Positions 17,059-31,127 of a stretch of DNA of 49,726 bases are shown in pieces. The stretch is from positions 1 through 49,726 of the forward strand of contig JAFGES010000117.1 of assembly GCA_016931455.1 (NCBI GenBank). Direction: 5' to 3'. Origin of the DNA: Desulfobacterales bacterium. GTDB taxonomy: Bacteria > Desulfobacterota > Desulfobacteria > Desulfobacterales > JAHDSC01. The position numbers and the translations under genes were made by a program. The notes beneath the pieces are model-generated. The model worked only from the letters and a program-made list of their open reading frames with translations, had not been told where the DNA came from and did not search any database. Each line of letters opens with the position of its first letter. Position 1 is the stretch's first letter.

Positions 17059-20000
17059 CTACCAATAGAACACACTTTCGCGTTCTTCACAGTATTTCCA
17101 AAATTCCTTAAAACAACTATTTTTCTGAAGCATTTTTTCCGTATGGGAAATCGCTGAAAAGAAGGCATTGCTTCCGATAACTATTAGTTTATTCCTTGCT
17201 CTGGTAATGGCCACGTTAAAACGGTTCGGGTTATTCAGAAAATCCGTCATGATATGGTCGGGATCAGAGCTTGTAAAAGAAAAAATAATAACATCTCTTT
17301 CAGCGCCTTGAATACGTTCCACCGTATCAATCAGCGGAAGATTCATATTTTCATTTTCAAGCAGGGTTACAAGATGCTTTGTTACCGCATTGTTTTGTGC
17401 CCGATGCGGTGAGATCAATGCCAGTTGATCGGCGCTTAATCCGCAATCGTTCATCAATCTGAATGCCAGTTGAGTCATGATCTCGCATTCTATTTCCGAT
17501 TCCTGATGACATCCCTCATGATCCGCCAGAACCAGGGCGACCGGTTTTTCAGGAGCTAATATTTGGTCAATGAGATCATGTCTTAATTTGTTATTCAGAT
17601 TCAGTCGATTATCTGCTTTTTCCGGTGAGGGTTTAAGCAGACCATCATACCATGTGCGGCTTGGAAACCTACAAAGGGTTTCATTCATACGATAGGTTAA
17701 ATCCAGGCGTATCTTGTGGTTGGAATTATATTGATCCAACAAAATTTCCAACACGGATTTTTGAAGATCGCTTGTCAAATCAACTTTACATGCCGACTGA
17801 TCGTATGGTCCTTGATTACTCATCATGGAAAATCGATGGTCATTTTCATAATTTCCAAGAACAATGGGCCGCAACTGTTTGACATCCCCCAAAAAGACAA
17901 AGTTTCCCTTTCCATAGATTAAACTGAGCAACGCCTGAGGAACCAATATCTGGGATGCCTCGTCAAAAATTACCCAATCGAAAAATTGAGGAAAATTTCC
18001 CTTTCCGCTTTCAAAGAGCTGATAAAGGCCGTATCCGGTGGCCCCCAGAATCAGATAGGGTGTTTTTAGTATTTCCTCCGCACTATCCAAAGACTCAACC
18101 TGAATTGCTCCGGTCTTTTCATCTTTCTCCGACTGCCGTCGGCCCCACTTGATGCAGCGGCCGGGAAAATCCTTTGGTTTGTGAACATTCACTAATTGCA
18201 CTACTTTGTTTAAAACATTATCGATGGCCTGATGCGTTAAGGCGCTGATTGCAATCCGCAGCGGCCTTCCAATTTCCTGAGCCCGTTCAATCAGAGCAAG
18301 TAAAATCCAGCCTAAAAGATGGGTCTTTCCTGTTCCCGGAGGCCCTTCAATTAAGCTTAAATTATATTGAAACGGAAGCTCCAAGGCGCTTTTTTGCGTG
18401 TTATTCAGTTTTGCAATCGATTCGTATTGTTGCATCCGGTTCCGAATCCACAACAGAGAATCCGCGGGCTGCTTATGTAACCACCGGCCGGAAATGAGTC
18501 TGGATAACATATGGGAATCATCGCCGGAAAATATAGTTTGAATAATGTGTGTAAGCTTGGGTTCATTCCAATCCGTTAAATCTTCCTCAAGAGAATAGGA
18601 AATGCGTTTATTTAACGGCAATCGCTTTTGTCTGGAAAGCAATGAAACTTTTCCAAGAGAGCGATCATAATCATTCAAAATCACGGAAAAACCGCTTTGC
18701 AAATCGGAAATTCCCAGGGGAACAAGTTTAAGGAAATCTCCTTCACGAAACTTGGAAAGAATGGTCTCCCTTGAAATTTTAAAATTATAGAGAAAACGTC
18801 CTTCCGGGTCGAGGCTTATGCCTTGAAAATTCAAAGGCCCGATAGCTCGAAAGCGTTCTATCCGTTCCGGCAAGCAATATTGCTGAAGCGATAGAATATC
18901 TTCTTCTTTTTTTCGTTTTTCCTCTTTTAAAAAGTGAAAATAAGCTGCTTGTTGAGGATTTTTCATTTCATCTGAAAATACCCAGCGTTCCGGTTCTCTT
19001 TCACTTTCAAGGTAAGACGAAGCCCATTTCCAAAGATGATGCTGAAGCATTAAAGAAGACTTCAAAAATGCTGTAATCTCATCTTTGACTTTCTCTTCGG
19101 GCTTATCGCTGAAAAAAACATCGGGAAATTGATCAAAATGAAAAAAGCTCTCCGGAGGGTTGGGTTCAGGGCTAAGTCCCAGCAAACGGCTTAGAGAAAA
19201 AAGCGTTAATAATCCGGGAATCGGAAAATCGAAATGTTCAACAATGACTTGACGCAAGTCCGTCCAATGAGAATGGTTCCAAAGAAAATTCAAAGGCTTT
19301 GTATATTCCGAACTTTTTCCCCATTTCAAAATGCTCTCCCATGTTCCTGTTCCAAAGCAAAAAATATGAGGCGTTTTTTCCTGTTCCACACTTTGCCCCC
19401 AAATTTTAAGCAATTGGCTGAAAAATTTCTGACCGGCCCGGGCCATATCCTTTTGGGCGTCAATAGTCCATATACGAAAGTCTTTAACTTTTCCGCCGTC
19501 ATCCAAAACACGCCGGCCCAATGCAACGGGAAGCGATGAAAGGGGATTTCCGATCACATCTAAAAAGATAAATGTCGAAATATTTTTTGGAAACAAGCGG
19601 GTTTTCTTTTTACGAAGAATAACCTGGTTGGTTTTAAAGGCCTTTAAACGATCCTGAATCCGTTCCTTTTGATAAGGGCTAAAGGAATCCGTATTGATGG
19701 AATCTAATGAAGAATCCTCAAACCATGTTGCCGCGCTTTCTATAGTGTTGATATTCAGCTTTTTTAGTTTGCGCAGTTCTCCGAGCGTTAATTGAGGAAG
19801 GAACTGAATATCTTGTTTTTGTAAGGCCTCTTTATAACAATATTCAAACCAGGGACAGGTCGTACAGTGCCCATCAAGTTTATGCTCCGCTTCCGATGCA
19901 GGGTATTTTAAGATATTTGCCAGATTTTGGAAGAGCATTGAAAAGGCAGACATATAAGGACCAAGATCAAATGTGTGATAATCAATTTCATCAGCCTCAC

Positions 20001-22947
20001 TTGGAGAGCGTGTTATCAAAAAACCTGCACTCGAAAGCTCAGCTTGAGATGAAAGTATCTGTGAGTTGATGATTTGTTGCAATAAGAATGCATAAAATGC
20101 AACCTGCCATTTTTGATGGTACTGCGGGGAAAGACTGCTTTTGATATCCCCTACCGCTAAGACGGTTTTGTCCTTTAGCTTTGACACTCTAATGAGATCA
20201 GCAATGCCGAGGCCGTTTATTTCGCTTAATTGGAAATCTTTTTGTTGAGAAAGGAGGGAAGGCGTTTTTAATATGGAATTTACAATAAAGACACCCTGGG
20301 AAAGATAAAGCGGCCTTTCGGGTTTTTGACCAGCTTTTTGAATCAAATCCCGTAACCGGCTTATTGATTTTTCAAAACGCTTTTTTATAGGTATAATATT
20401 GCCGTTTGCATCATTTTCTTCAATGCTGATCAGCGCATCACTTTTTGTGCGAAGATTGCAAAGAACCTGTTTTTCATAATTACGCCCTTTTTCCATTCTA
20501 ATCATTTCCAGTCTATCCACACGCGTTCGCCTGGGAGGCTGCTTATCGGAAGGCATGAACTGAAAACCAAACCATCGCCGGCACTCCTTGTGTCTCAGAT
20601 ATTGCCCTATTATTGTTCCTGTAAGGGGCCGTGATAGGTAATTAACATCTGCTATATAAAGCGTCTGATCCGTGAGCCGGCACTTTTTCTCCTTGTCCAG
20701 CAATGATTCTTTGAAAGCAGGGATACGGATAAATGTTTTCTTTTCTTTAACCGGCTCCTGATCCTGAAAATCAAGGCTTCTTCGATCCCCTGATACAATT
20801 TTTGAAGATTTTCTTAAATATTGGTCAAAAGCATCGGCAACACGGTGGTCAAAAACAAAACCTGTTAATTCTTCGATCAGTAAAGATTCAGGAAGAGCCG
20901 GGCAGAAACTGTTTAAAGGAAACAATGCGTGAAGGATAGATGCGTGTTTTTTCACCCAATTATAAAAATCTTTTCTATTGCACGGTAAGGAAAGTTTTTG
21001 AAAATCTATCCATCGGGAGCAGTTTATCCCGATTTCATCGGAAGTGATATATAAATCCTCATCCCTGTTTTCCAGCTCTTTTTTAATGGTCCATTCCAGG
21101 ATCAGATTACCTACGGATCCAAGAAATGTTCTGTACCGATATATTCCAGGCTTTCCGCTGACAACCTCTATTCCGTTTTCCAATACCACGGCGTTTTCTT
21201 GCTTCTTCAATTCTTCATAAATAAGCTTACGAGTACGGGAAAATAATCCGGCAGCATTTTCATTTTCCGTTTTATCTGATGACTTTAAAAGCTCACGCAT
21301 GCATTGGGCGACATCATAAGAAACATGAAGGCCTGTACCGAGCCAGTAAATCTCCTTATCACCCACGTAATCCGCAGGTATGGCCGACACCCTTTTTTCC
21401 TTCCCTGTGTCGATCTTTAAAATCTGAAGAGGTTTGCCTGCCAAATGAACCCTGTCGCCGATATCAAGCTGACGCACAACGGACTTTGGAATATCCGCAA
21501 TAGCTTCTTGCTCCGATTCAAGTGTATATTCTTCTTCCGTTTCCGGAAAATTACTCCAGATTTTGCGTTCCAGAAGGCAATTCCGGTATTGCCGTCCGCC
21601 TTCAAAAAGGCCGTCAAAAGAGGCTTTTTTAATCCATGATTTTTTTTCCATAAAATCAAAAAGGAGCTCAACCGATTTCCTATGCTCGGGAAAAAGTCCT
21701 TGAAAAGCAGGTATGGAAATTTGCCTGTTTTCGTATAGGCAGGAAAATATCTGCTGAACCAGCACACTGGGTAATGTCCTGAAAGACGGAGATTCCACCA
21801 TTCCCTTACGAGCTGATCTTAACAGTGCTAAAAAACGAAGAATTTGGTCTCCTGCTTTTTCTCCTCTGCAGATGCCCCAAAAATGAATATTCTTTTGGCG
21901 CCGGTTGGAACGGCCTAACCGCTGCAAAAAAGCGGATACGGAATCAGGAGGTTCGTAAAGCAAAACAGCATCCACATCTCCCACGTCAATACCGAGTTCA
22001 AGCGTGCTGGTCGTTACACAAAGGGCATGTATATTGTTACGAAATCGGTTTTCCGCAGCCCTTCGTTCATTGACTTTAAGATTGGAATAATGGATTTCAC
22101 AAACGCCTTTAAAACGGCCTTGCCCGTTTATCATGCTGAAGAGACCATCACAGCGGCTGCGGCTATTGGCAAAGATCAAAATTTTTCTATACTTCCAGAC
22201 ATTGTAAAGATCATCCAAAAGGGCTGTAAGCTCAATATCTTCATTTTTGAGATAAATCAGATGCGGTATGATTTCTCGATTCACACTTTCAGTCAGTTGA
22301 ACCGTATCAGGCTTGAAATCGAAGAATTGAATGACGGCATCCATATCTGCAATGGTTGCGGAAAGGGCGATCTTCTGTAAAGTATTACCGGTTCTACGTT
22401 GCAAACGTCTCAGCAAATATGCCAACTGCTGTCCCCTGTATTGGTATAAAAATGGATGAACTTCGTCGATAATCACCATTTGAATTCTGGATACAAATCC
22501 CTTTAAATCAGGATTGGAGCTGCCTAAAAGCACATCCAGAGACTCCGGCGTGGTAATCATAAGATCAGGGCGATTGCCGCCGCCGCGTTTTATGTCTCCT
22601 GTTCTTATGGCCAAACCCAGCCCGAGACGCTGTGTCAAAAATAAATCAAAACGCCTCTTCAGATCAAAGGCAAGCGCACGCGTGGGCACGATATAGATCA
22701 GCGCGTAAGACCGCCCTGAACGGATAACCTGCTCCAGACAAGGCGCCAGAACTGCTTCCGTCTTACCTGACCCGGTTGCAGCCTGCAAAACCAGGTCTTT
22801 TCCATCAAGAATCGGCTCAATGGTCTTTTTTTGAATCCAGTGAAGACCGGGAAAACTTCCATAAAACGCGTGGTAGGTATTGGGGAGCTTAAATAACGGG
22901 GAATCGGTTAGACTGTCGTACATTCCGTCTATATAGTTCAAAATCAA
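17059..22947 (-). CDS. Giant Lhr-like helicase / RecB-Cas4 nuclease / SF1 helicase fusion
   Basis: A 1962-aa protein. (1) Residues about 35-460 form an SF2 DExH helicase of the Lhr type: Walker A AATGSGKTE (56-64), TTPESLD, DEVH (161-164), LSAT (195-198), STLELGIDVGDVD (314-326) and QRLGRSNRR (342-350). (2) About 850-1040 is a PD-(D/E)XK nuclease of the RecB/Cas4 type, with GIADL, the VGDIKSS strand near 934, QVAFY, and an iron-sulfur Cys set (one in KQVLCNLRT, then CTTCPWFEYC near 1027). (3) Near 1125-1260 an RNase H-like domain reads FLDVIGNP. (4) About 1500-1950 is an SF1 Dna2/UPF1-like helicase: GPPGTGKTH near 1534, DEASQ near 1660, VERIQGAERD near 1876 and NVAITRARNKL near 1903. It starts at a TTG overlapping the upstream stop (an ATG eight codons inside is possible). 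It is the last gene of the four-gene operon. Confidence 0.88.
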   Translation of the reverse strand: MILNYIDGMYDSLTDSPLFKLPNTYHAFYGSFPGLHWIQKKTIEPILDGKDLVLQAATGSGKTEAVLAPCLEQVIRSGRSYALIYIVPTRALAFDLKRRFDLFLTQRLGLGLAIRTGDIKRGGGNRPDLMITTPESLDVLLGSSNPDLKGFVSRIQMVIIDEVHPFLYQYRGQQLAYLLRRLQRRTGNTLQKIALSATIADMDAVIQFFDFKPDTVQLTESVNREIIPHLIYLKNEDIELTALLDDLYNVWKYRKILIFANSRSRCDGLFSMINGQGRFKGVCEIHYSNLKVNERRAAENRFRNNIHALCVTTSTLELGIDVGDVDAVLLYEPPDSVSAFLQRLGRSNRRQKNIHFWGICRGEKAGDQILRFLALLRSARKGMVESPSFRTLPSVLVQQIFSCLYENRQISIPAFQGLFPEHRKSVELLFDFMEKKSWIKKASFDGLFEGGRQYRNCLLERKIWSNFPETEEEYTLESEQEAIADIPKSVVRQLDIGDRVHLAGKPLQILKIDTGKEKRVSAIPADYVGDKEIYWLGTGLHVSYDVAQCMRELLKSSDKTENENAAGLFSRTRKLIYEELKKQENAVVLENGIEVVSGKPGIYRYRTFLGSVGNLILEWTIKKELENRDEDLYITSDEIGINCSRWIDFQKLSLPCNRKDFYNWVKKHASILHALFPLNSFCPALPESLLIEELTGFVFDHRVADAFDQYLRKSSKIVSGDRRSLDFQDQEPVKEKKTFIRIPAFKESLLDKEKKCRLTDQTLYIADVNYLSRPLTGTIIGQYLRHKECRRWFGFQFMPSDKQPPRRTRVDRLEMIRMEKGRNYEKQVLCNLRTKSDALISIEENDANGNIIPIKKRFEKSISRLRDLIQKAGQKPERPLYLSQGVFIVNSILKTPSLLSQQKDFQLSEINGLGIADLIRVSKLKDKTVLAVGDIKSSLSPQYHQKWQVAFYAFLLQQIINSQILSSQAELSSAGFLITRSPSEADEIDYHTFDLGPYMSAFSMLFQNLANILKYPASEAEHKLDGHCTTCPWFEYCYKEALQKQDIQFLPQLTLGELRKLKKLNINTIESAATWFEDSSLDSINTDSFSPYQKERIQDRLKAFKTNQVILRKKKTRLFPKNISTFIFLDVIGNPLSSLPVALGRRVLDDGGKVKDFRIWTIDAQKDMARAGQKFFSQLLKIWGQSVEQEKTPHIFCFGTGTWESILKWGKSSEYTKPLNFLWNHSHWTDLRQVIVEHFDFPIPGLLTLFSLSRLLGLSPEPNPPESFFHFDQFPDVFFSDKPEEKVKDEITAFLKSSLMLQHHLWKWASSYLESEREPERWVFSDEMKNPQQAAYFHFLKEEKRKKEEDILSLQQYCLPERIERFRAIGPLNFQGISLDPEGRFLYNFKISRETILSKFREGDFLKLVPLGISDLQSGFSVILNDYDRSLGKVSLLSRQKRLPLNKRISYSLEEDLTDWNEPKLTHIIQTIFSGDDSHMLSRLISGRWLHKQPADSLLWIRNRMQQYESIAKLNNTQKSALELPFQYNLSLIEGPPGTGKTHLLGWILLALIERAQEIGRPLRIAISALTHQAIDNVLNKVVQLVNVHKPKDFPGRCIKWGRRQSEKDEKTGAIQVESLDSAEEILKTPYLILGATGYGLYQLFESGKGNFPQFFDWVIFDEASQILVPQALLSLIYGKGNFVFLGDVKQLRPIVLGNYENDHRFSMMSNQGPYDQSACKVDLTSDLQKSVLEILLDQYNSNHKIRLDLTYRMNETLCRFPSRTWYDGLLKPSPEKADNRLNLNNKLRHDLIDQILAPEKPVALVLADHEGCHQESEIECEIMTQLAFRLMNDCGLSADQLALISPHRAQNNAVTKHLVTLLENENMNLPLIDTVERIQGAERDVIIFSFTSSDPDHIMTDFLNNPNRFNVAITRARNKLIVIGSNAFFSAISHTEKMLQKNSCFKEFWKYCEERESVFYW

Positions 22948-24188
22948 TAGTTTTTCAAAACCCGTTTCTGATGGGCAATATCCAGTTGTTCAACCAAAGC
23001 CTTTAATTTAAAACGGGTTTCCAGATCGCCTGTTTCTTTTAGTTTGTTTCTTATTTGATCATATACATTGGTTTCAAAAGGCTGCCATGCATAGGCCTCG
23101 GCATGAAGAAGCATTAATTTTTCAGACAGGTGTTCCCATTGCTTAGGGGATAAATCATGTAACCGGTAAATATTAAGGTCGCGCCATGCTTTCGCATAGT
23201 TTTGATCAAAATAGGGGATTTCGATTTCATTCCTGATCCGGGTTCGCTCATAATCTTCTTCTTCAACTTTAAGAAAGAAATCTTCCGTAAAGGCAAATAT
23301 GGGATAAAACCCGGGCATAGGTTTTTCAGAAAAAAATATTCGGTTTAATATTTTATAGCTCTTGCTTCGAGAAAAAACAGGAGACTGAACAATGGATTCT
23401 CCCTCATCAAAAAGGAGCACCCATCCGGAAAATCCCATGTTTTTAAAAAGTCGGGCAAGCGCGTAAGTCATATTAAGATAGGGCTCCGGGCCTTTACAAC
23501 TTAATGAATCCTCTTTATAAAATGATACTTGCCTGTATTTGAAAACCTTTTTTAATCGATATACGGGTACGGATTCACCCAAAAGGGCGCGGGACAACAG
23601 ATAGGGAAATTCCCGGGGACGAAATGCGGCATGCTTTTTCAGTCTTTTCTCTCGATCGGAAAGAGAAATATTATTTTGTGCCAGAGCCGCCATGACGGAT
23701 TTAAACAAATGCGGCATTTCATCGGGAATCATATTCAACAGACCTTGTCCGTTGTTTTTTTCAAAGGATATGTTTTGTTGCTTTATCCAGGTTTTCCAAT
23801 GATTGATCAAAGATGTTTCCGTGCCGGGAAATTTGATGCGGGTTATCAGTTCCGTGTAAACGCGTTTAAAATCATGAAAAGGAATTTCTCGGGGATCAAG
23901 ATTGATCTGACTGACAACAAAACTCTGCGAAAGTGCCTGTTCTTTGATATAGGTAAGACTATGGGATTTGCCCTGCCCGTAAGATCCGCAAATACAAAGA
24001 TGAGCTGCTGAATTTTTTTCCAAATCCAGCGCTCCTTTTCCAAAGGCGCGGTTTAGATCGGCTTCACCGGCAGTGAGCAGCTTTACACCCAGAGGATCAA
24101 ATAGTCCTTCACGCAGACGCTCCACGGCTCGCCGGAGCTTAAAATTACCAACATTGTTTAATGTGTTTAAAAAATAAGAATCATCCAT
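22944..24188 (-). CDS. BrxD/DUF2791-like P-loop ATPase, second copy
   Basis: A 414-aa ATPase. Walker A is GSYGQGKS (68-75) after AHLCIC, and Walker B is WVLLFDEGE (256-264). The pattern around it, with an N-terminal RRAVERLREGLFDP and a REIPFHDFKRVY strand-helix after Walker A, is that of the BREX BrxD/DUF2791 ATP-binding proteins, in which this P-loop protein works with an Lhr-type helicase. It is clearly not a recent duplicate of the neighbouring ATPase: the two share only the general layout. The start follows the upstream stop by seven bases, and its stop overlaps the start of the helicase gene. Likely role: ATP-driven sensor or loader for the helicase (inference). Confidence 0.75.
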   Translation of the reverse strand: MDDSYFLNTLNNVGNFKLRRAVERLREGLFDPLGVKLLTAGEADLNRAFGKGALDLEKNSAAHLCICGSYGQGKSHSLTYIKEQALSQSFVVSQINLDPREIPFHDFKRVYTELITRIKFPGTETSLINHWKTWIKQQNISFEKNNGQGLLNMIPDEMPHLFKSVMAALAQNNISLSDREKRLKKHAAFRPREFPYLLSRALLGESVPVYRLKKVFKYRQVSFYKEDSLSCKGPEPYLNMTYALARLFKNMGFSGWVLLFDEGESIVQSPVFSRSKSYKILNRIFFSEKPMPGFYPIFAFTEDFFLKVEEEDYERTRIRNEIEIPYFDQNYAKAWRDLNIYRLHDLSPKQWEHLSEKLMLLHAEAYAWQPFETNVYDQIRNKLKETGDLETRFKLKALVEQLDIAHQKRVLKNY

Positions 24189-24195
24189 AGGTTAA

Positions 24196-25497
24196 TCATG
24201 AATCCCAACTGGGCTGAAGGTATTCGATTTTTTCCTGTTTAATCTCGCGTTGACTGGAAAGAACATGCTCTGTAAGGTCTAATTCCTCAGGAGACTTGCC
24301 CTGTTCAGCCATATCCAGAAGACGAACGATTTGCTTGACGAAAAGACGAACTTCGCTTAAAAGCCCCATGCGTTTCTGATTCATGCAAATTTGCTCAATC
24401 AGGTCATCTTTGATTAAATCTCCGGCCTGCCATCGGTAAGAGATTTCATGAATCCGCCTGAGACAGGTCCCCAAACTGATCAGTTCTTTCTCCTGAAGAG
24501 GGGTTTGATGAAGATTAATCAACACGCCGCGATAGTTCAGGCGGCTGCTTTCGCCCACGGAACGAACCCGGCTCCAAAGCGCGTCATAGGACTTAAATCC
24601 CTTTTCCGAAGCAAGCACATCCGGAATAATCGAAAAAAAGATATGCAGATACTCTGCCTGCTCGGTATTGTCTATAAGCAGACGAACATTTTCGTATGCT
24701 GCATTACGAACCGACGCTGCCTGGGCAATAACGGTTTCAAGCTCATCCATCAAAAGAATAAGTCCTTTATATCCCCGGTAACGAAGAAAAACGATAAGAG
24801 AGCTTAAAAACTGTTTGCTGTTTGTCTTATTAAGGACTTCAAAGATCTGAAACGGCTTTAATTCCTTTTTAGCAACCTTGTTTCCTTCAAGCCAACGATA
24901 AAGAATGTCGATGCCTGCATTACGTTCCTCTTGAGTTTCTCCTTCCTTAAGAGGCATTAATCTATAGTTTAAAAGGGAAATCACCGCATTGGCAAAATTG
25001 ATATCCATTCCGGAAAGCGCGCGAATAGTTTCGCTCGTTTTCAAGATTCGCTCCTCTATGGAAGATTTGTCTTCTTCAGTCTGTTCAGAGCTTAAATGAT
25101 TCATCCAATTTTCCATCAAGTTGCGAATACCATTGTGTTCAAATGTTCCCATCAGTTGATTGACAATCGATTGATACACTATTTCAAATTTGTGAATCGG
25201 AACTTCCCGAGTCAGAACTACAAATGATACGGCAAATCCTTTCTGAAGCGACAGGTGACGAACAACGGACATGAAGTGGGTTTTGCCGTCCCCGTAATCG
25301 CCGCTTATAAAACGAACCTTGGCGCCTCCTTCGGCAATATAATGCTCCAGATCATCTTCGATCAAAGTCAGCCAGTTTTCGCGTCCCACAGTAAAAAAAG
25401 ACACGTAATCCGTAGGCACACTTCCTTTACGAAGCGCTTCTATAATGGTTCTGGCCTCAAAAGGTTCTAGTTGTTCCAAATTTTCTTTTGATATCAT
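24196..25497 (-). CDS. BrxD/DUF2791-like P-loop ATPase, first copy
   Basis: A 433-aa ATPase with N-terminal EARTIIEALRKGSVPTDYVSF, the conserved DUF2791/BrxD opening, then Walker A GDYGDGKT (66-73), LTREVPIHKFEIVYQ (95-109) and Walker B LILLMDELE (246-254). The last 80 residues form a helical C terminus. BrxD-type ATPases accompany an Lhr-like helicase in type 2 BREX, and related ATPases sit with helicases in other phage-defence loci; here two such ATPases occur in tandem. Its ATG overlaps the TGA of the 279-aa gene (ATGA) behind a GGAGGG site, so translation is coupled. Confidence 0.82.
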   Translation of the reverse strand: MISKENLEQLEPFEARTIIEALRKGSVPTDYVSFFTVGRENWLTLIEDDLEHYIAEGGAKVRFISGDYGDGKTHFMSVVRHLSLQKGFAVSFVVLTREVPIHKFEIVYQSIVNQLMGTFEHNGIRNLMENWMNHLSSEQTEEDKSSIEERILKTSETIRALSGMDINFANAVISLLNYRLMPLKEGETQEERNAGIDILYRWLEGNKVAKKELKPFQIFEVLNKTNSKQFLSSLIVFLRYRGYKGLILLMDELETVIAQAASVRNAAYENVRLLIDNTEQAEYLHIFFSIIPDVLASEKGFKSYDALWSRVRSVGESSRLNYRGVLINLHQTPLQEKELISLGTCLRRIHEISYRWQAGDLIKDDLIEQICMNQKRMGLLSEVRLFVKQIVRLLDMAEQGKSPEELDLTEHVLSSQREIKQEKIEYLQPSWDS

Positions 25498-26333
25498 TGC
25501 CCACCCTCCTGAAAGGATATACCGGTGATCTGCCGTCGTTCACCGTCGCTGTCGATGAGCCATAGGGATTTATTTCGTCCGGGACTTAATTTCAGTATAT
25601 AACCGTCGGATGTTCCGCCTATGCCGGCCTGAAAATAACGCCAAAAATCGACTGTAAACTGATCCAGACTGTAACCCTTGAATTTTGCCTTGTCCATATC
25701 CTGAAAAAATGTTTTGCTTTGAAGAGAAATCACAAACTCCAGATAAAAACGTTGTATGGCAATAGGATGACCTGATTTTAAGTTTTCCTGATTAATGATA
25801 TTTGCGTAGGTCTGATAAATACTATCAATAAAAACCTGGGCATCATAAGGACGATCATAAAGCAGGCGTTTGATCTTTAATACAGCCGTAATGATTTTCC
25901 GTGGATCAATTGACTTTAAAACTTTTTTGTTGATCTTTGTTATTCGTTTTCCAAAATCGATCTCCCCGTCTATTCCTTTTAAAACACTAAAACGGGGAAT
26001 GTCTATACTAATAGGAAGATTATTTTCTTCGGCAATTTGGGTAAGATCTTCGATGAATTGGATACGGTACCGCTCGACCTTTTCATTGGTGTAGACCCTC
26101 AAACGGTCAAAAATATCTTTGCACGCGTTTAAATCGCTGTCTTCTAAAACGGTTTCAGTCATTCTGCCTTTTAATTGTTCATCCAGTGCAAGGAAATCAT
26201 CTCTTTCCACATACCGGATGCACTGTTTTACAAAATCAGCCATTCGCTGTTTGCGGTTAATTTCAGACTGATAAGGTCGTAGTATCTGATTCAATGCCTC
26301 CTGGGAATCCTGTAAAAAAGTTTCATTATTCAT
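25494..26333 (-). CDS. Unrecognised 279-aa protein heading the helicase/ATPase operon
   Basis: I do not recognise a domain. The protein is mostly alpha-helical by sequence, with charged helices at residues 1-95 (RKQRMADFVKQCIRYVERDDF, ALDEQLKGRMTE, VYTNEKVERYRIQFIEDL), a middle region with KINKKVLKSIDPRKI, and a C-terminal beta-like end (YILKLSPGRNKSLWLID, then ERRQITGISF). There is no signal peptide or membrane segment, so it is cytoplasmic. By position it corresponds to the small partner that precedes ATPase and helicase genes in Shango- or TerB-type systems, but no TerB motif can be shown. Its start ATG has only a poor ribosome site. The downstream ATPase overlaps its stop. Confidence 0.8.
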   Translation of the reverse strand: MNNETFLQDSQEALNQILRPYQSEINRKQRMADFVKQCIRYVERDDFLALDEQLKGRMTETVLEDSDLNACKDIFDRLRVYTNEKVERYRIQFIEDLTQIAEENNLPISIDIPRFSVLKGIDGEIDFGKRITKINKKVLKSIDPRKIITAVLKIKRLLYDRPYDAQVFIDSIYQTYANIINQENLKSGHPIAIQRFYLEFVISLQSKTFFQDMDKAKFKGYSLDQFTVDFWRYFQAGIGGTSDGYILKLSPGRNKSLWLIDSDGERRQITGISFQEGGQ

Positions 26334-26399: not shown

Positions 26400-26618
26400 T
26401 TACCTTTCTCTTCCTTCCCGTATGATATCCACTATTTCCTGTGTTGTAATATTTGCTTTAATTGATGGGACATCCAAGGGGGAAGAAGCAATTTTTTCCG
26501 GAACCAACGCAAATGTTCGGCCGTCCTTTCTTCGTATTAATACCTTTCCCGTTTTTTCTGCCTGTTCAAGGACTATAGCGAGCTTTTGTCGTGCCTCTGA
26601 ATATGAATAAACTTGCAT
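26400..26618 (-). CDS. Phd/YefM-family antitoxin
   Basis: About 72 aa from ATG 26618, one base after the toxin stop; a longer in-frame start lies inside the toxin gene. The N-terminal part MQVYSYSEARQKLAIVLEQA then KTGKVLIRRKDG and ALVPE matches the Phd/YefM DNA-binding fold, and the C-terminal 25 residues (IKANITTQEIVDIIREGRER) form the usual toxin-binding tail. It is translated together with the PIN toxin and should repress the promoter at 27036-27069. Confidence 0.85.
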   Translation of the reverse strand: MQVYSYSEARQKLAIVLEQAEKTGKVLIRRKDGRTFALVPEKIASSPLDVPSIKANITTQEIVDIIREGRER

Positions 26619-26619
26619 T

Positions 26620-27012
26620 TTAGACCCCCATGGTTTTAACGTTAAAATCTTGAGCAACTTTTTTCAGCTTTTGATCCAACGTCAATAGCGGTGCTTTATG
26701 CCTGATCGCACAATACAAAAAATAGGCATCATATGCATATATATTGGCTTTTTTAGATATTTTTACAGCTTGGAAAAAATCAGATTCGATATACCGAAGA
26801 GGGATACTCTTAAAAATTGATAGACCATTTTGAGCATCTTCCAGTTTCAATCTGTTTTGTTTGAACATCGCAGAAAAGGCATTGCCGATTTCCCAGGGTA
26901 TGGAGCCGGGTCCGATAAGTGTATTTCCTGTTGTAACTTCTATAATCCTGTTACGTTCAGGTTCACCGACAATAACAGCAATTATTGCCGAAGTATCAAT
27001 AACAATATCCAC
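26620..27012 (-). CDS. PIN-domain toxin (VapC-like ribonuclease)
   Basis: About 130 aa from GTG 27012, chosen because GGAGGT sits just upstream; an earlier start at 27069 would lie in the promoter. The PIN acidic residues are visible: VIDTSAIIA (first Asp), the Glu of WEIGNAFSAM, YDAYFLYCAI (Asp) and LLTLDQKL (Asp). PIN toxins cut tRNA or rRNA in one defined site. Gene order is unusual: the toxin precedes its antitoxin, whereas Phd-type antitoxins normally come first. Confidence 0.87.
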   Translation of the reverse strand: MDIVIDTSAIIAVIVGEPERNRIIEVTTGNTLIGPGSIPWEIGNAFSAMFKQNRLKLEDAQNGLSIFKSIPLRYIESDFFQAVKISKKANIYAYDAYFLYCAIRHKAPLLTLDQKLKKVAQDFNVKTMGV

Positions 27013-27034
27013 ATTTACCTCCAAAATTGATTTT

Positions 27035-27070
27035 CTTGACAATTGTACAATAGTTATTCGATTTGTCAAG
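27035..27070 (-). promoter_or_regulatory. Promoter and inverted-repeat operator of the PIN/Phd operon
   Basis: On the minus strand, TTGACA (27069-27064) and TACAAT (27047-27042) are 16 bases apart, a near-consensus sigma-70 promoter. A perfect inverted repeat CTTGACAA (27035-27042) / TTGTCAAG (27063-27070) spans it, so a bound antitoxin would cover both elements. Confidence 0.7.
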
Positions 27071-27869: not shown

Positions 27870-27975
27870 CGGCGTTTAGATTCAGGCGTTTTATTCCATT
27901 TATGAAAAACGAGGCTTCAGAAGTTGCTTTGTTTGGCTCGGCGCGTTATACGGCGTTTTGGTATGGGTAATTTAT

Positions 27976-28004
27976 TTGACAAGAAGTGTAGTGTGGATTA
28001 AAAT
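27976..28004 (+). promoter_or_regulatory. Promoter of the MazEF-like operon
   Basis: TTGACA (27976-27981) and TAAAAT (27999-28004) are 17 bases apart, close to the sigma-70 consensus, with the start site expected about 25 bases before the antitoxin ATG. Confidence 0.7.
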
Positions 28005-28035
28005 AGCTATTATTATCCATAAAATGAGGTATAAT

Positions 28036-28269
28036 ATGAAAACAGTCCAAATGACTCTTGATGAAGATCTTGTCAAAGAAGTTGACCGTGTTTCAAAGGA
28101 TCTTCACACAACTCGTTCCGCGTTTACGCGAAAAGCACTTCGGGAAGCGCTTGTCCGCTACAAACTCGATATATTGGAAATCAAGCATCGAGAGGGCTAC
28201 CAACGACACCCTGTAGCTGATGATGAGTTTTCAGTTTGGGAATCGGAACAGGATTGGGGCGACGCATGA
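28036..28269 (+). CDS. Ribbon-helix-helix antitoxin (MazE-like partner)
   Basis: About 77 aa from ATG 28036 behind GAGGT; upstream in-frame starts lack a site. The opening MKTVQMTLDEDLVKEVDRVSK then TTRSAFTRKALREALVRY is a CopG/RHH DNA-binding fold (beta strand with alternating polar residues, two helices), and the C-terminal acidic tail (residues 50-77, VADDEFSVWESEQDW) should wrap the toxin. Its stop overlaps the toxin ATG. Confidence 0.88.
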   Translation: MKTVQMTLDEDLVKEVDRVSKDLHTTRSAFTRKALREALVRYKLDILEIKHREGYQRHPVADDEFSVWESEQDWGDA

Positions 28270-28577
28270 AACAAGGTGAAATCCGTTGGTACAAGTTCCC
28301 GCGTCCGGATAAAAAAAGGCCGGTTTTGATACTGACCCGAGATTCCGCTTTGAGATATCTAGGCGAAGTGACCGTTGCCCCCATTACAACTACAGTACGC
28401 GATATACCGTCCGAAGTTTTTCTGTCAAAGGCCGATGGTATGCCCCGAGATTGCGCTATCAATTGTGACCATCTGCAAACGGTTTCAAAGAGTAAAATCG
28501 GTTCTCTGCTTATGACCTTATCTCCGTCGAAAATGATTGATGTTGGAAGCGCAATTCGATTTGCTCTCAATATTTGA
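28266..28577 (+). CDS. mazF: MazF-family endoribonuclease toxin
   Basis: About 103 aa from ATG 28266 in an ATGA overlap with the antitoxin. MazF features: the N-terminal MKQGEIRWYKFPRPDKKRPVLILTRD strand with the conserved K-R-P-V, a LGEVTVAPITTTVRDIP core, and DHLQTVSKSKIGSL with a conserved Asp/His region near residue 68, in the classic MazF/PemK order. MazF cuts single-stranded mRNA at short sequences. No RelE, HicA or other toxin features are present. Confidence 0.9.
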   Translation: MKQGEIRWYKFPRPDKKRPVLILTRDSALRYLGEVTVAPITTTVRDIPSEVFLSKADGMPRDCAINCDHLQTVSKSKIGSLLMTLSPSKMIDVGSAIRFALNI

Positions 28578-28640
28578 GGCCGACAAGCATTTGCACAACC
28601 GAGTGAGTTACCGCGGCGATTTTTTTTCGAAAGTTTGTGT

Positions 28641-31127
28641 ATGAAAAATCAACCCATCCAAAATTCGGGAACAATCATCGAATCCATCAGGGGTATCGTA
28701 GATCGCGTCACCTACCACAATCCGGATAATGGATGGTCCGTTCTGCGTGTTTTGCCTTTTGACAATCCCCATCAACAGGAAACGGTTACGGTTCATCAAA
28801 CCAAAGTTTTTGCCGGGGCCACGATGGAATTTCATGGTGCATGGACCGTTCATCCCAAATTCGGCCGTCAATTTAAAGCCGTGAAAGCCGTTGAAAGAAA
28901 GCCGGCAACAACCGCTGCAATAGAAAAATATCTTGGATCAGGACTCATCAAAGGTGTCGGTCCAAAGACCGCCAAGAAAATCGTCAAATATTTCGGCAAT
29001 GAAACAATTGAGGTATTTGAAAATGAGATCAAGCGGCTCACGGAGGTTCGTGGAATCGCTCACAAGAAATTGGTGATGATCAGTGAGGCGTGGACCGAGC
29101 ACCGGGCGATCCGAAACGTGATGATGTTTCTCCAGTCTCACGGCATCAGCACCCTCTTTGCCGTTCGGATTTACAAAGAGTACGGCGACCATGCGATTGA
29201 ATATGTGAATGAGGATCCGTATCGACTGGCCCTGGATTTTTACGGCATCGGTTTTTTCTCGGCAGATAAAGTCGCTCTCAGCATCGGTCTTGAAAGAAAT
29301 AGTCCCCAAAGAATTAAGGCCGGTATCAGTCATGTCCTGGCCGCCGGCAGGGAATTCGGTCATTGTTACCTGACGGAATCGCAAATTGCCGCACAGGTCA
29401 ATGAACTGTTGGAATTGAAGCTTGATGACCGGATACCTGATTTCCTTGATCAAATGAAGCAAGACGGGCTTATCATGGTCCGTGAACTTAACAACCCGGA
29501 TGGGGTAACCGAATCCTGCTATTATTCCAAATCCCTTTATTTTGATGAGCTTTATGTTGCAAGGAGAATTTCCAGCACCAAGTATCCACCCCTTGTCGAC
29601 AAAGAACGGGTTGAAAACTGGATCGATCGATACTGCGAAACAAAAAACTTTTCCTTGAGCGAAGAACAGGCTGATGCTGTTAAGGGTATTGTATGCGAAA
29701 ATTTTTCTGTTCTGACCGGGGGTCCCGGCTGCGGAAAAACAACGACAACCCTTGTCGTCGTCAGATTGCTCGAGGCAATGAAACGGAAAATCCTGCTTGC
29801 CGCCCCAACGGGTCGTGCCGCTCAGCGAATGATGGATGTCATCGGCAGAGAATCCAAAACCATCCATCGCCTGCTGGAGTGGCAAATCGGCCGGTTCAAA
29901 AGAAATGAGGAATATCCCCTTGATGTGGATTTCATCATCATTGATGAATGCTCCATGCTCGATATTAGTCTGACCGCTTCGTTACTCAAAGCGATTCCAT
30001 CGGAAAGTCAGATCCTTTTTATCGGCGATCCGGACCAATTACCTTCAGTCGGTGCGGGTAATGTCCTTCGCGATATTATCGCCTCCGCAACGGTCCGCTG
30101 TTTCGAACTGAAAAAAGTCTTTCGGCAGGCACAGGAATCGCTCATCATCAAATACGCTCACCAGATCAACAAGGGTGACATGCCTTACATTGATTCTCCA
30201 TTCAAAAAGCCCGAAATATGGCAACAACAAGCGGATTGTCTGTTCATGGATTCCGATGAGGCCACGCAAGAGCAGCTCAACTTCATTGCCAAGGTCAAAA
30301 GGTTTTGTGAATTTCAGCCACCTGAACCGATCGATGCAGCTGAATCAATCACCAATCCGTACGAGTTCCGCATCGATGACGCCATTCTTCCTTACGAAAC
30401 GGAATTGACCATTCCCAAAAAATTTCAGCACGTCAACCTGGAACAACTATACCAGGCAGAAAGCAGGGTGGATGAATTGTTGACGGTTTTGAAAAAAGTC
30501 CATCCCTGGTCATCGCTGCATTACGGCCTGTCGGCAGTTGAAGTGGTCAGGAAACTTTATACTGAATGGATGCCCAAATATTTCGGGGATAAGACCGAGA
30601 TCCAGATTCTTTCACCCATGACCCGGGGTAGCCTCGGTACGGTCAGCTTGAATAAAATGATCCAGGAATCGGTCAATTCCGCTCAGAAGGGAAAAGCTCA
30701 ACTCAGTGTCGGTGAAAGAATCTTTAGAGTCGGTGATCGGGTAATTCATCGCAGGAACAATTATGATCTTAACGTGTTCAACGGCGATATCGGCACCATT
30801 CGAAGAATCGATACAGAGGAACTGAAGTTATGGGTCTCTTTTTTTCCGGACGGCCGGGTGGTCGAATATACCCAAGAGGCTGTTCCGGAACTGGATTTGG
30901 CCTACGCCATTACGATCCACAAATCACAGGGGAGTGAATTTGAAGCGGTCATTATTCCCGTCCTGACGCAGCATTTCAAGATGCTGTTTCGGAACCTGAT
31001 TTATACCGGTCTGACCCGGGCCAAAAAACTGGCTGTTTTGGTTGGAACACGCAAAGCATTGGCGATGTCCGTTAAGAATCAAGACACCAGCCGGCGGCAG
31101 ACCTTGCTGAAAGAATTACTGCAATGA
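28641..31127 (+). CDS. recD2: RecD2-like SF1B DNA helicase
   Basis: About 828 aa from ATG 28641 (a GTG two codons earlier is less likely). The N-terminal domain begins IRGIVDRVTYHNPDNGWSVLRV, followed by two helix-hairpin-helix stretches (GSGLIKGVGPKTAKKIV and LTEVRGIAHKKL), then helicase motifs: GGPGCGKTT near 360, APTGRAAQRM, DECSML near 433, and the C-terminal AITIHKSQGSEF near 757 with TGLTRAKK. RecD2 unwinds 5'-to-3' in genome repair. Between about residues 520 and 650 the protein has an extra 100 or so residues before the QILSPMTRGSLG motif. It is not operonic with the MazEF pair. Confidence 0.9.
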   Translation: MKNQPIQNSGTIIESIRGIVDRVTYHNPDNGWSVLRVLPFDNPHQQETVTVHQTKVFAGATMEFHGAWTVHPKFGRQFKAVKAVERKPATTAAIEKYLGSGLIKGVGPKTAKKIVKYFGNETIEVFENEIKRLTEVRGIAHKKLVMISEAWTEHRAIRNVMMFLQSHGISTLFAVRIYKEYGDHAIEYVNEDPYRLALDFYGIGFFSADKVALSIGLERNSPQRIKAGISHVLAAGREFGHCYLTESQIAAQVNELLELKLDDRIPDFLDQMKQDGLIMVRELNNPDGVTESCYYSKSLYFDELYVARRISSTKYPPLVDKERVENWIDRYCETKNFSLSEEQADAVKGIVCENFSVLTGGPGCGKTTTTLVVVRLLEAMKRKILLAAPTGRAAQRMMDVIGRESKTIHRLLEWQIGRFKRNEEYPLDVDFIIIDECSMLDISLTASLLKAIPSESQILFIGDPDQLPSVGAGNVLRDIIASATVRCFELKKVFRQAQESLIIKYAHQINKGDMPYIDSPFKKPEIWQQQADCLFMDSDEATQEQLNFIAKVKRFCEFQPPEPIDAAESITNPYEFRIDDAILPYETELTIPKKFQHVNLEQLYQAESRVDELLTVLKKVHPWSSLHYGLSAVEVVRKLYTEWMPKYFGDKTEIQILSPMTRGSLGTVSLNKMIQESVNSAQKGKAQLSVGERIFRVGDRVIHRRNNYDLNVFNGDIGTIRRIDTEELKLWVSFFPDGRVVEYTQEAVPELDLAYAITIHKSQGSEFEAVIIPVLTQHFKMLFRNLIYTGLTRAKKLAVLVGTRKALAMSVKNQDTSRRQTLLKELLQ

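Follow-up and report, generated by a model that had tools for sequence, protein, structure and literature searches.

The window analysed here is a stretch of 49,726 nucleotides from a Desulfobacterales bacterium (GenBank assembly GCA_016931455.1, contig JAFGES010000117.1), and it holds a cassette of four genes, here termed A to D, that encode a protein outside known families, two BrxD-like AAA+ ATPases and one very long polypeptide with two helicases and a nuclease. Because this gene set is conserved across phyla, the cassette is real and far beyond chance. An earlier note made from the sequence alone had placed four open reading frames here, and all of them are present on the same strand:

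25494-26333, minus strand: gene A, 279 amino acids (aa), ATG start (open reading frame list, family scans, AlphaFold model and 61-sequence alignment)
24196-25497, minus strand: gene B, 433 aa, ATG start, a BrxD/SngB-like ORC-type AAA+ ATPase
22944-24188, minus strand: gene C, 414 aa, ATG start, a second, diverged BrxD-like AAA+ ATPase
17059-22947, minus strand: gene D, 1962 aa, TTG start, superfamily 2 (SF2) helicase, Cas4/RecB-type nuclease and superfamily 1 (SF1) helicase

The same note described the genes as tightly coupled through ATGA and TTGA overlaps. In the window sequence this is true of the A/B junction (ATGA) and the C/D junction (TTGA) and not of B and C, which are separated by a gap of 7 bases. 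D has an alternative start at an in-frame ATG at 22923, eight codons past the TTG.

Proteins of the cassette

The families of B, C and D had been called by eye, and hidden Markov model (HMM) scans agree with these calls. Two different BrxD-type ATPases do stand in tandem: B matches BrxC_BrxD (8e-62), BrxD (8.7e-48) and SngB (1.5e-36), and C matches BrxC_BrxD at 8.8e-24, which is weaker than B and above the cut-off. Profile comparison ties B to C at 99.6% (E 1.7e-23). Both match the BrxC_BrxD profile and have the two Walker motifs, A and B, intact, by which we recognise an ORC/Cdc6-type AAA+ ATPase, and the motifs lie as follows:

25279-25302, minus strand: Walker A of B, residues 66-73, kept in 59/59 B sequences
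24742-24747, minus strand: Walker B DE of B, residues 251-252, kept in 59/59 B sequences
23964-23987, minus strand: Walker A of C, residues 68-75, Gly and Lys in 56/56 and Ser/Thr in 56/56 C sequences
23403-23408, minus strand: Walker B DE of C, residues 261-262, kept in 56/56 C sequences

The proposed composition of D, an SF2 helicase, a Cas4/RecB-type nuclease and an SF1 helicase, is borne out by its HMM matches (DEAD with Helicase_C, AAA_11 with AAA_12) and by the motifs of three regions:

20827-22854, minus strand: module 1 of D, a BrxHI/SngC-like SF2 helicase, residues 32-707 (BrxHI 4.3e-88, SngC 9.4e-75; catalytic residues kept)
19768-20640, minus strand: nuclease region of D, about residues 770-1060 (Cys 789, Asp 917, Asp 934, Lys 936, Gln 948, Cys 1028, 1031 and 1037)
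17128-18441, minus strand: motor of module 2 of D, an AAA_11/AAA_12 SF1 helicase, residues 1503-1940 (Walker motifs kept in every sequence reaching them)

The SngC match covers residues 34-637 of D and leaves about 1300 more residues beyond it. Residues 954-1244 match a TM0106-family RecB-like nuclease (9e-15), and D carries the four cysteines and the D...DxK...QxxxY pattern of a Cas4/RecB/AddB-type Fe-S nuclease; the Pfam Cas4 model itself gives 14.3 bits, under its cut-off of 22.7 bits. Among 36 D sequences the Walker motifs of both helicases are complete wherever the sequence reaches, and in the nuclease each of the four Fe-S cysteines and Asp934 are kept in 36/36, Lys936 and Asp917 in 34/36 each and Gln948 in 31/36. 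With their motif residues conserved, B, C and D look active. We read the alignment of the stretch between the nuclease and the SF1 motor as a degenerate RNase-H-like part, as in TM0106-family nucleases, whose presumed first Asp is replaced in relatives. D is a fusion of two modules which elsewhere occur as separate genes: in SAR324 the two halves are encoded apart (763 and 1221 aa), and at some other loci the SF2 half stands as a lone gene beside A-B-C. The single polypeptide with two helicases and a nuclease described by the earlier note is thus correct for the window and misses this modular organisation.

Protein A has no family match in Pfam, NCBIfam or PADLOC. Its full-length AlphaFold model, built with 61 relatives, has a predicted local distance difference test score (pLDDT) of 93 and shows three parts: a long helical hairpin at the N-terminus, a small beta part and, at the C-terminus, a domain in which helices are followed by a beta wing:

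25497-25847, minus strand: winged-helix-like domain of A, residues 163-279 (predicted alone, pLDDT 91; structure neighbours)

The best structural neighbour of this domain is ORC (Z 6.0, root-mean-square deviation 3.8, 88 aligned residues), a weak match below the trust level of the tool. Nearly all its neighbours are winged helices, with ORC1 and other ORC subunits on top and Cdt1, condensin and MukE/F kleisin, RctB and JetA below them, and since no single score is trustworthy (Z up to 6), it is the consistency of this list that points to a winged helix. Foldseek with A gave nothing below E 0.001, and profiles of A, B and C against the sequences of solved structures gave nothing useful. A is predicted to be a new family with a winged-helix C-terminal domain nearest to that of ORC.

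Distribution, linkage and mobility

Scanned with the alignment of A, a set holding one genome per species returned 65 loci. They belong to Desulfobacterota (many carry the label Deltaproteobacteria), Latescibacterota, Gemmatimonadota, SAR324, Chlamydiota, an acidobacterium and a Legionellaceae metagenome-assembled genome; most are contigs of such genomes, where binning errors may affect the phylum labels and some absences of D are contig ends. B follows A at 62 of 62 loci with room for it and C comes next at 57 of 58; in the one that differs, L080, an interruption follows B. D lies on the same locus in 46 of the 65, five times upstream of A. Seven of the 19 loci without a local D have at least 3 kb after A (L070, L074, L075, L076, L080, L083, L109), and when these carriers were searched as whole genomes, D was found elsewhere in all seven. 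In Eth-SRB1 the scaffold that carries A-B-C also carries D, at a distance of about 50 kb and adjacent to a gene for a PIF1-like helicase; another contig holds a second D copy. In Electrothrix aarhusensis D lies 8 kb downstream on the same contig. Because D is unlinked or split in some genomes and yet present there, the invariant, linked core is A-B-C, and D, a fusion of two modules, occurs together with it. An operon that always includes D was rejected, given its unlinked copies in several genomes.

Co-occurrence of the four genes in other genomes, which the earlier note had named as the check on its proposal, is hence found across phyla, and the order A-B-C-D also recurs in about a dozen genomes of the phylum in searches with A and C. 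Of the one co-expressed complex or operon that it envisaged, the linked A-B-C core stands and an obligate D does not, as D may lie tens of kilobases off. Presence is patchy, with A matched in 11 of 96 genomes of the order (E <= 0.001), among which eight besides the window's own are near full-length and two are weak or truncated.

Loci with unrelated flanks share the A-B-C(-D) block at 80-98% identity, so it moves as a unit. Loci L074 and L075 share 98% identity over the 3.4 kb of A-B-C, the Desulfotignum loci L101 and L132 82% over 9.4 kb, and Simkania (L123) and an acidobacterium (L125) 83.6% over just the 8.2 kb A-D block. The tree of B clusters by phylum, yet several cross-phylum placements are needed. 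To judge from these identities, the cassette is a horizontally moving accessory module. No transposon-like ends were seen, as the inverted or direct repeats shared by the block ends have only chance lengths of 8-10 bases, and no flanking family recurs across loci. In the Latescibacterota loci L088, L096 and L099 the neighbourhood of the cassette is conserved over about 20 kb, unlike elsewhere.

The window's own genome carries, at G000:C115:8129-8232 (L164), a 104-bp copy of the last 104 bp of D including the stop codon, 95% identical and with no other cassette part nearby; by this match, it is a remnant of a second or earlier D copy, the scar of one that was lost or moved. In Eth-SRB1-type genomes an 833-aa PIF1-like helicase (HRDC and HTH_40) lies upstream of the unlinked D, and PIF1-D, 93% identical at two sites in Eth-SRB1, forms a moving block of its own. 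The PIF1-like helicase genes are:

L165:13295-15793, minus strand
L166:658-3156
L169:7144-9642, minus strand

Around the cassette in the window the following genes were noted as context:

26400-27069, minus strand: Phd/YefM antitoxin and PIN toxin pair, 66 bp upstream of A and outside the cassette
27958-28577: RHH/MazF toxin-antitoxin pair, upstream of the cassette
28635-31127: full RecD2 gene, beyond the RHH/MazF pair

The island had been described as bounded by toxin-antitoxin pairs, which applies to this upstream side only; on the D side a pyridoxamine-phosphate-oxidase-like gene adjoins. At other loci an MNT-HEPN lies between B and C (L044:12126-12859), an MNT-like gene between C and D (L082:13468-14118), and pairs resembling RHH and MazF by eye adjoin D (L111:13749-14355, L170:6378-6984).

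Related layouts and known systems

Distant matches of C within the phylum are again ATPase pairs, and two further layouts come with different motors. The second (L204, L205, L058) consists of an A-like protein, two BrxD-like ATPases and a BrxHI/SngC-like helicase of about 700 aa without the nuclease. The third (L206-L209 in genomes G222, G243, G239 and G281), strongly conserved among its four genomes, has an A-like protein, a degenerate BrxD-like ATPase without Walker A (a pseudo-ATPase), an active ATPase, a 188-aa protein in no known family and an SNF2-Mrr helicase-nuclease similar to ZorD/DpdE. In profile comparisons A matches the two A-like families at 98.8% (E 8e-17) and 97.1% (E 5e-11), C matches the active ATPase of the third layout at 99.8% (E 4e-29) and B its degenerate ATPase at 97.6%. 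The earlier note was right to call A a protein of no known family, and missed both its predicted winged-helix-like nature and its sharing with two further system types. The motor is thus exchanged between layouts, and A with the two ATPases appears to be a constant, loader-like core. That the trio acts on or delivers the motor may be proposed because a constant trio with a changing motor is otherwise hard to explain. Tandem pairs of BrxD-like ATPases without an adjacent BrxHI-like helicase were seen at L059, L060, L061, L063 and L057, several of them beside housekeeping genes (selA, rpe, rsmB, tldD and NAD(P)H-hydrate dehydratase).

The closest known systems are composed of parts of the same kind. 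Shango (SngA-SngB-SngC) also pairs an SngB-like BrxD ATPase with an SngC-like SF2 helicase in a compact operon, but has one ATPase and the TerB-type SngA, whereas the cassette has two predicted-active ATPases and A, and its SF2 helicase shares one polypeptide with a nuclease and an SF1 helicase. The SngA model found no match in the window's own genome, and profile comparison of A with genuine SngA gave a probability of about zero, while the same method ties A to its distant relatives, even from a single sequence, at 92-99%. With SngA absent and A unrelated to it, membership in Shango was rejected. The BrxD-BrxHI dyad of BREX type 2 (Pgl) is likewise matched by B and the SF2 half of D, but C lies between them, and the second ATPase, A and the nuclease-SF1 half set the cassette apart. 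PglZ/BrxZ (PF08665) is absent from the whole genome (97% complete), on which BREX membership was rejected, and none of the four cassette genes is a PglX/BrxX methyltransferase or BrxC, which were looked for in the cassette only. YprA-family systems (DISARM, Dpd, Druantia, ARMADA, BRIGADE, TALON) couple a YprA helicase with a DUF1998 module (PMC12458937); the Pfam hits of D up to E 1 include no DUF1998, so that a YprA-type system (ARMADA, TALON, BRIGADE) was rejected, and the main text of that paper mentions neither BrxD nor Cas4.

Further likenesses concern single parts. The second half of D, with its Fe-S nuclease, presumed degenerate RNase-H-like part and AAA_11/AAA_12 motor, resembles TM0106-family RecB-like nucleases with a C-terminal SF1 helicase, but is fused to or encoded with a BrxHI-like helicase and co-occurs with A-B-C. 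The SNF2-Mrr motor at L206-L209 is of the type of Zorya ZorD and Dpd DpdE, but its partners are an A-like protein, two BrxD-like ATPases of which one is degenerate and one active, and the 188-aa protein. No system in PADLOC-DB 2023 covers all four proteins, A matching nothing and B-D parts of several systems, and for PADLOC the claim that no known system spans the four genes holds. We found no description in the literature within our reach, which excluded newer model sets, supplementary files and subscription papers. The A-ATPase-ATPase family stands a fair chance of meriting a separate class.

Possible function of the cassette

BrxD has been described as an AAA+ protein of the ORC-Cdc6 type that lacks a DNA-binding domain; it forms a tight dyad with BrxHI and is the proposed loader of that helicase (PMC12839542). 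Two BrxD-type ATPases beside a separate winged-helix-like protein therefore make a split ORC/Cdc6-like loader the simplest model. B and C would form a hetero-oligomer of two different AAA+ ATPases, and A would supply the DNA-contacting winged helix that sits on the same chain in ORC/Cdc6 and is missing from BrxD-type ATPases. With ATP bound, A-B-C would single out some feature of an invader's DNA, or of foreign DNA that is damaged or replicating, and place D there; the BrxHI-like SF2 and the SF1 motors would then unwind the DNA, and the Fe-S nuclease between them would cut the displaced strand until the target is degraded. The complex, the loading step, the breakdown of DNA, the nature of the target and the defensive role are what we infer. 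The analogy to ORC-Cdc6-Cdt1 loading extends to AAA+ ATPases, a predicted winged helix and a proposed helicase cargo, and no further: the cassette is bacterial, its winged helix is on a separate chain, and its cargo is SF2-nuclease-SF1 instead of MCM. We hold the whole model, with D as the cargo of an A-B-C loader and a role against mobile elements, to be an evenly balanced proposition.

That the cassette is a defence system seems likely from its mobility, its patchiness, the toxin-antitoxin-type genes at several copies and its SF2 motor; antiphage function defines a potential SF2 clade made up of SngC, BrxHI, DruE and DpdJ (PMC12278908), and the best match of the SF2 part of D is to the SngC/BrxHI group. 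Several results weigh against this reading and the loader model. An unlinked D, as in several genomes, is unusual for a defence operon; Lys936 and Asp917 of the nuclease are each altered in 2 of 36 D proteins; relatives of A occur in no viral contigs or plasmids, and those of B in no phages; and the ORC resemblance of A stays below Z 8 in a winged helix, which is a common fold. The flanks, too, are without clear enrichment in known defence families, with 84 PADLOC families (E 1e-15) in 128 flank proteins vs 69 in 112 control proteins from random regions of three carrier genomes only, families being counted and not proteins. Of the candidate undescribed defence system proposed by the earlier note, the conserved cassette beyond PADLOC has stood up, and the defence role has no clear backing from flank enrichment.

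The cassette might instead serve the host as an accessory repair or replication-restart machine, in which A-B-C finds stalled forks or breaks in the chromosome of the host and loads D as a Dna2/AddAB-like end-processing enzyme. The nuclease-SF1 half does have a TM0106 RecB-like, Dna2-type architecture, the flanks are ordinary chromosome, some D copies are unlinked, with a PIF1-like helicase gene adjoining in Eth-SRB1, and the neighbourhood is conserved in Latescibacterota; but patchy presence, block transfer between phyla into unrelated sites and the grouping of the SF2 half with immune-system helicases speak for something else, and we consider repair unlikely. The target could also be plasmids rather than phages, with A-B-C sensing extrachromosomal DNA as part of a system like DdmDE, ApsAB or Wadjet. 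In DdmDE and ApsAB an SF2 helicase with a PD-(D/E)XK nuclease is guided by a separate recognition module (PMC11096173), a layout that the cassette shares, although that module is Argonaute-like there and AAA+ with a predicted winged helix here. The absence of A from plasmid records speaks for this reading, although the carrier phyla are probably poorly represented among the plasmids searched; B finds distant BrxD-like genes on plasmids, the best at about 27% identity, beside TerB genes as in Shango. An anti-plasmid role strikes us as quite improbable. A divergent Shango, or the BrxD-BrxHI part of BREX type 2 with no new mechanism, would account for the strong matches of B and of the SF2 half of D, but not for the missing PglZ and SngA, an A unrelated to SngA, or a second predicted-active ATPase and a nuclease-SF1 half found in neither system. 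As membership this is largely refuted, and we give it little credence.

A broader and more tentative proposal, which we think rather doubtful, is that a three-protein ORC-Cdc6-Cdt1-like loader defines an unrecognised superfamily that would recognise foreign or abnormal DNA and load exchangeable motors (the BrxHI-Cas4-SF1 fusion, the SngC-like helicase and SNF2-Mrr), with the BrxD-BrxHI of BREX and the SngB-SngC of Shango as reduced branches; if true, a eukaryote-like origin-loading logic would serve immunity. Two unannotated families, A and the 188-aa partner of the SNF2-Mrr type, are added in any case, both outside the defence models searched (PADLOC). In BREX type 2 and Shango the part played by the BrxD/SngB ATPases next to the BrxHI/SngC helicases is still open; here the same pair comes in a self-contained family that also has an intact nuclease, a predicted winged-helix subunit on its own chain and exchangeable motors, a clean system for the idea that an AAA+ protein loads an immune helicase. 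If the loader model holds, ORC-type helicase-loading logic would extend to bacterial genome defence.

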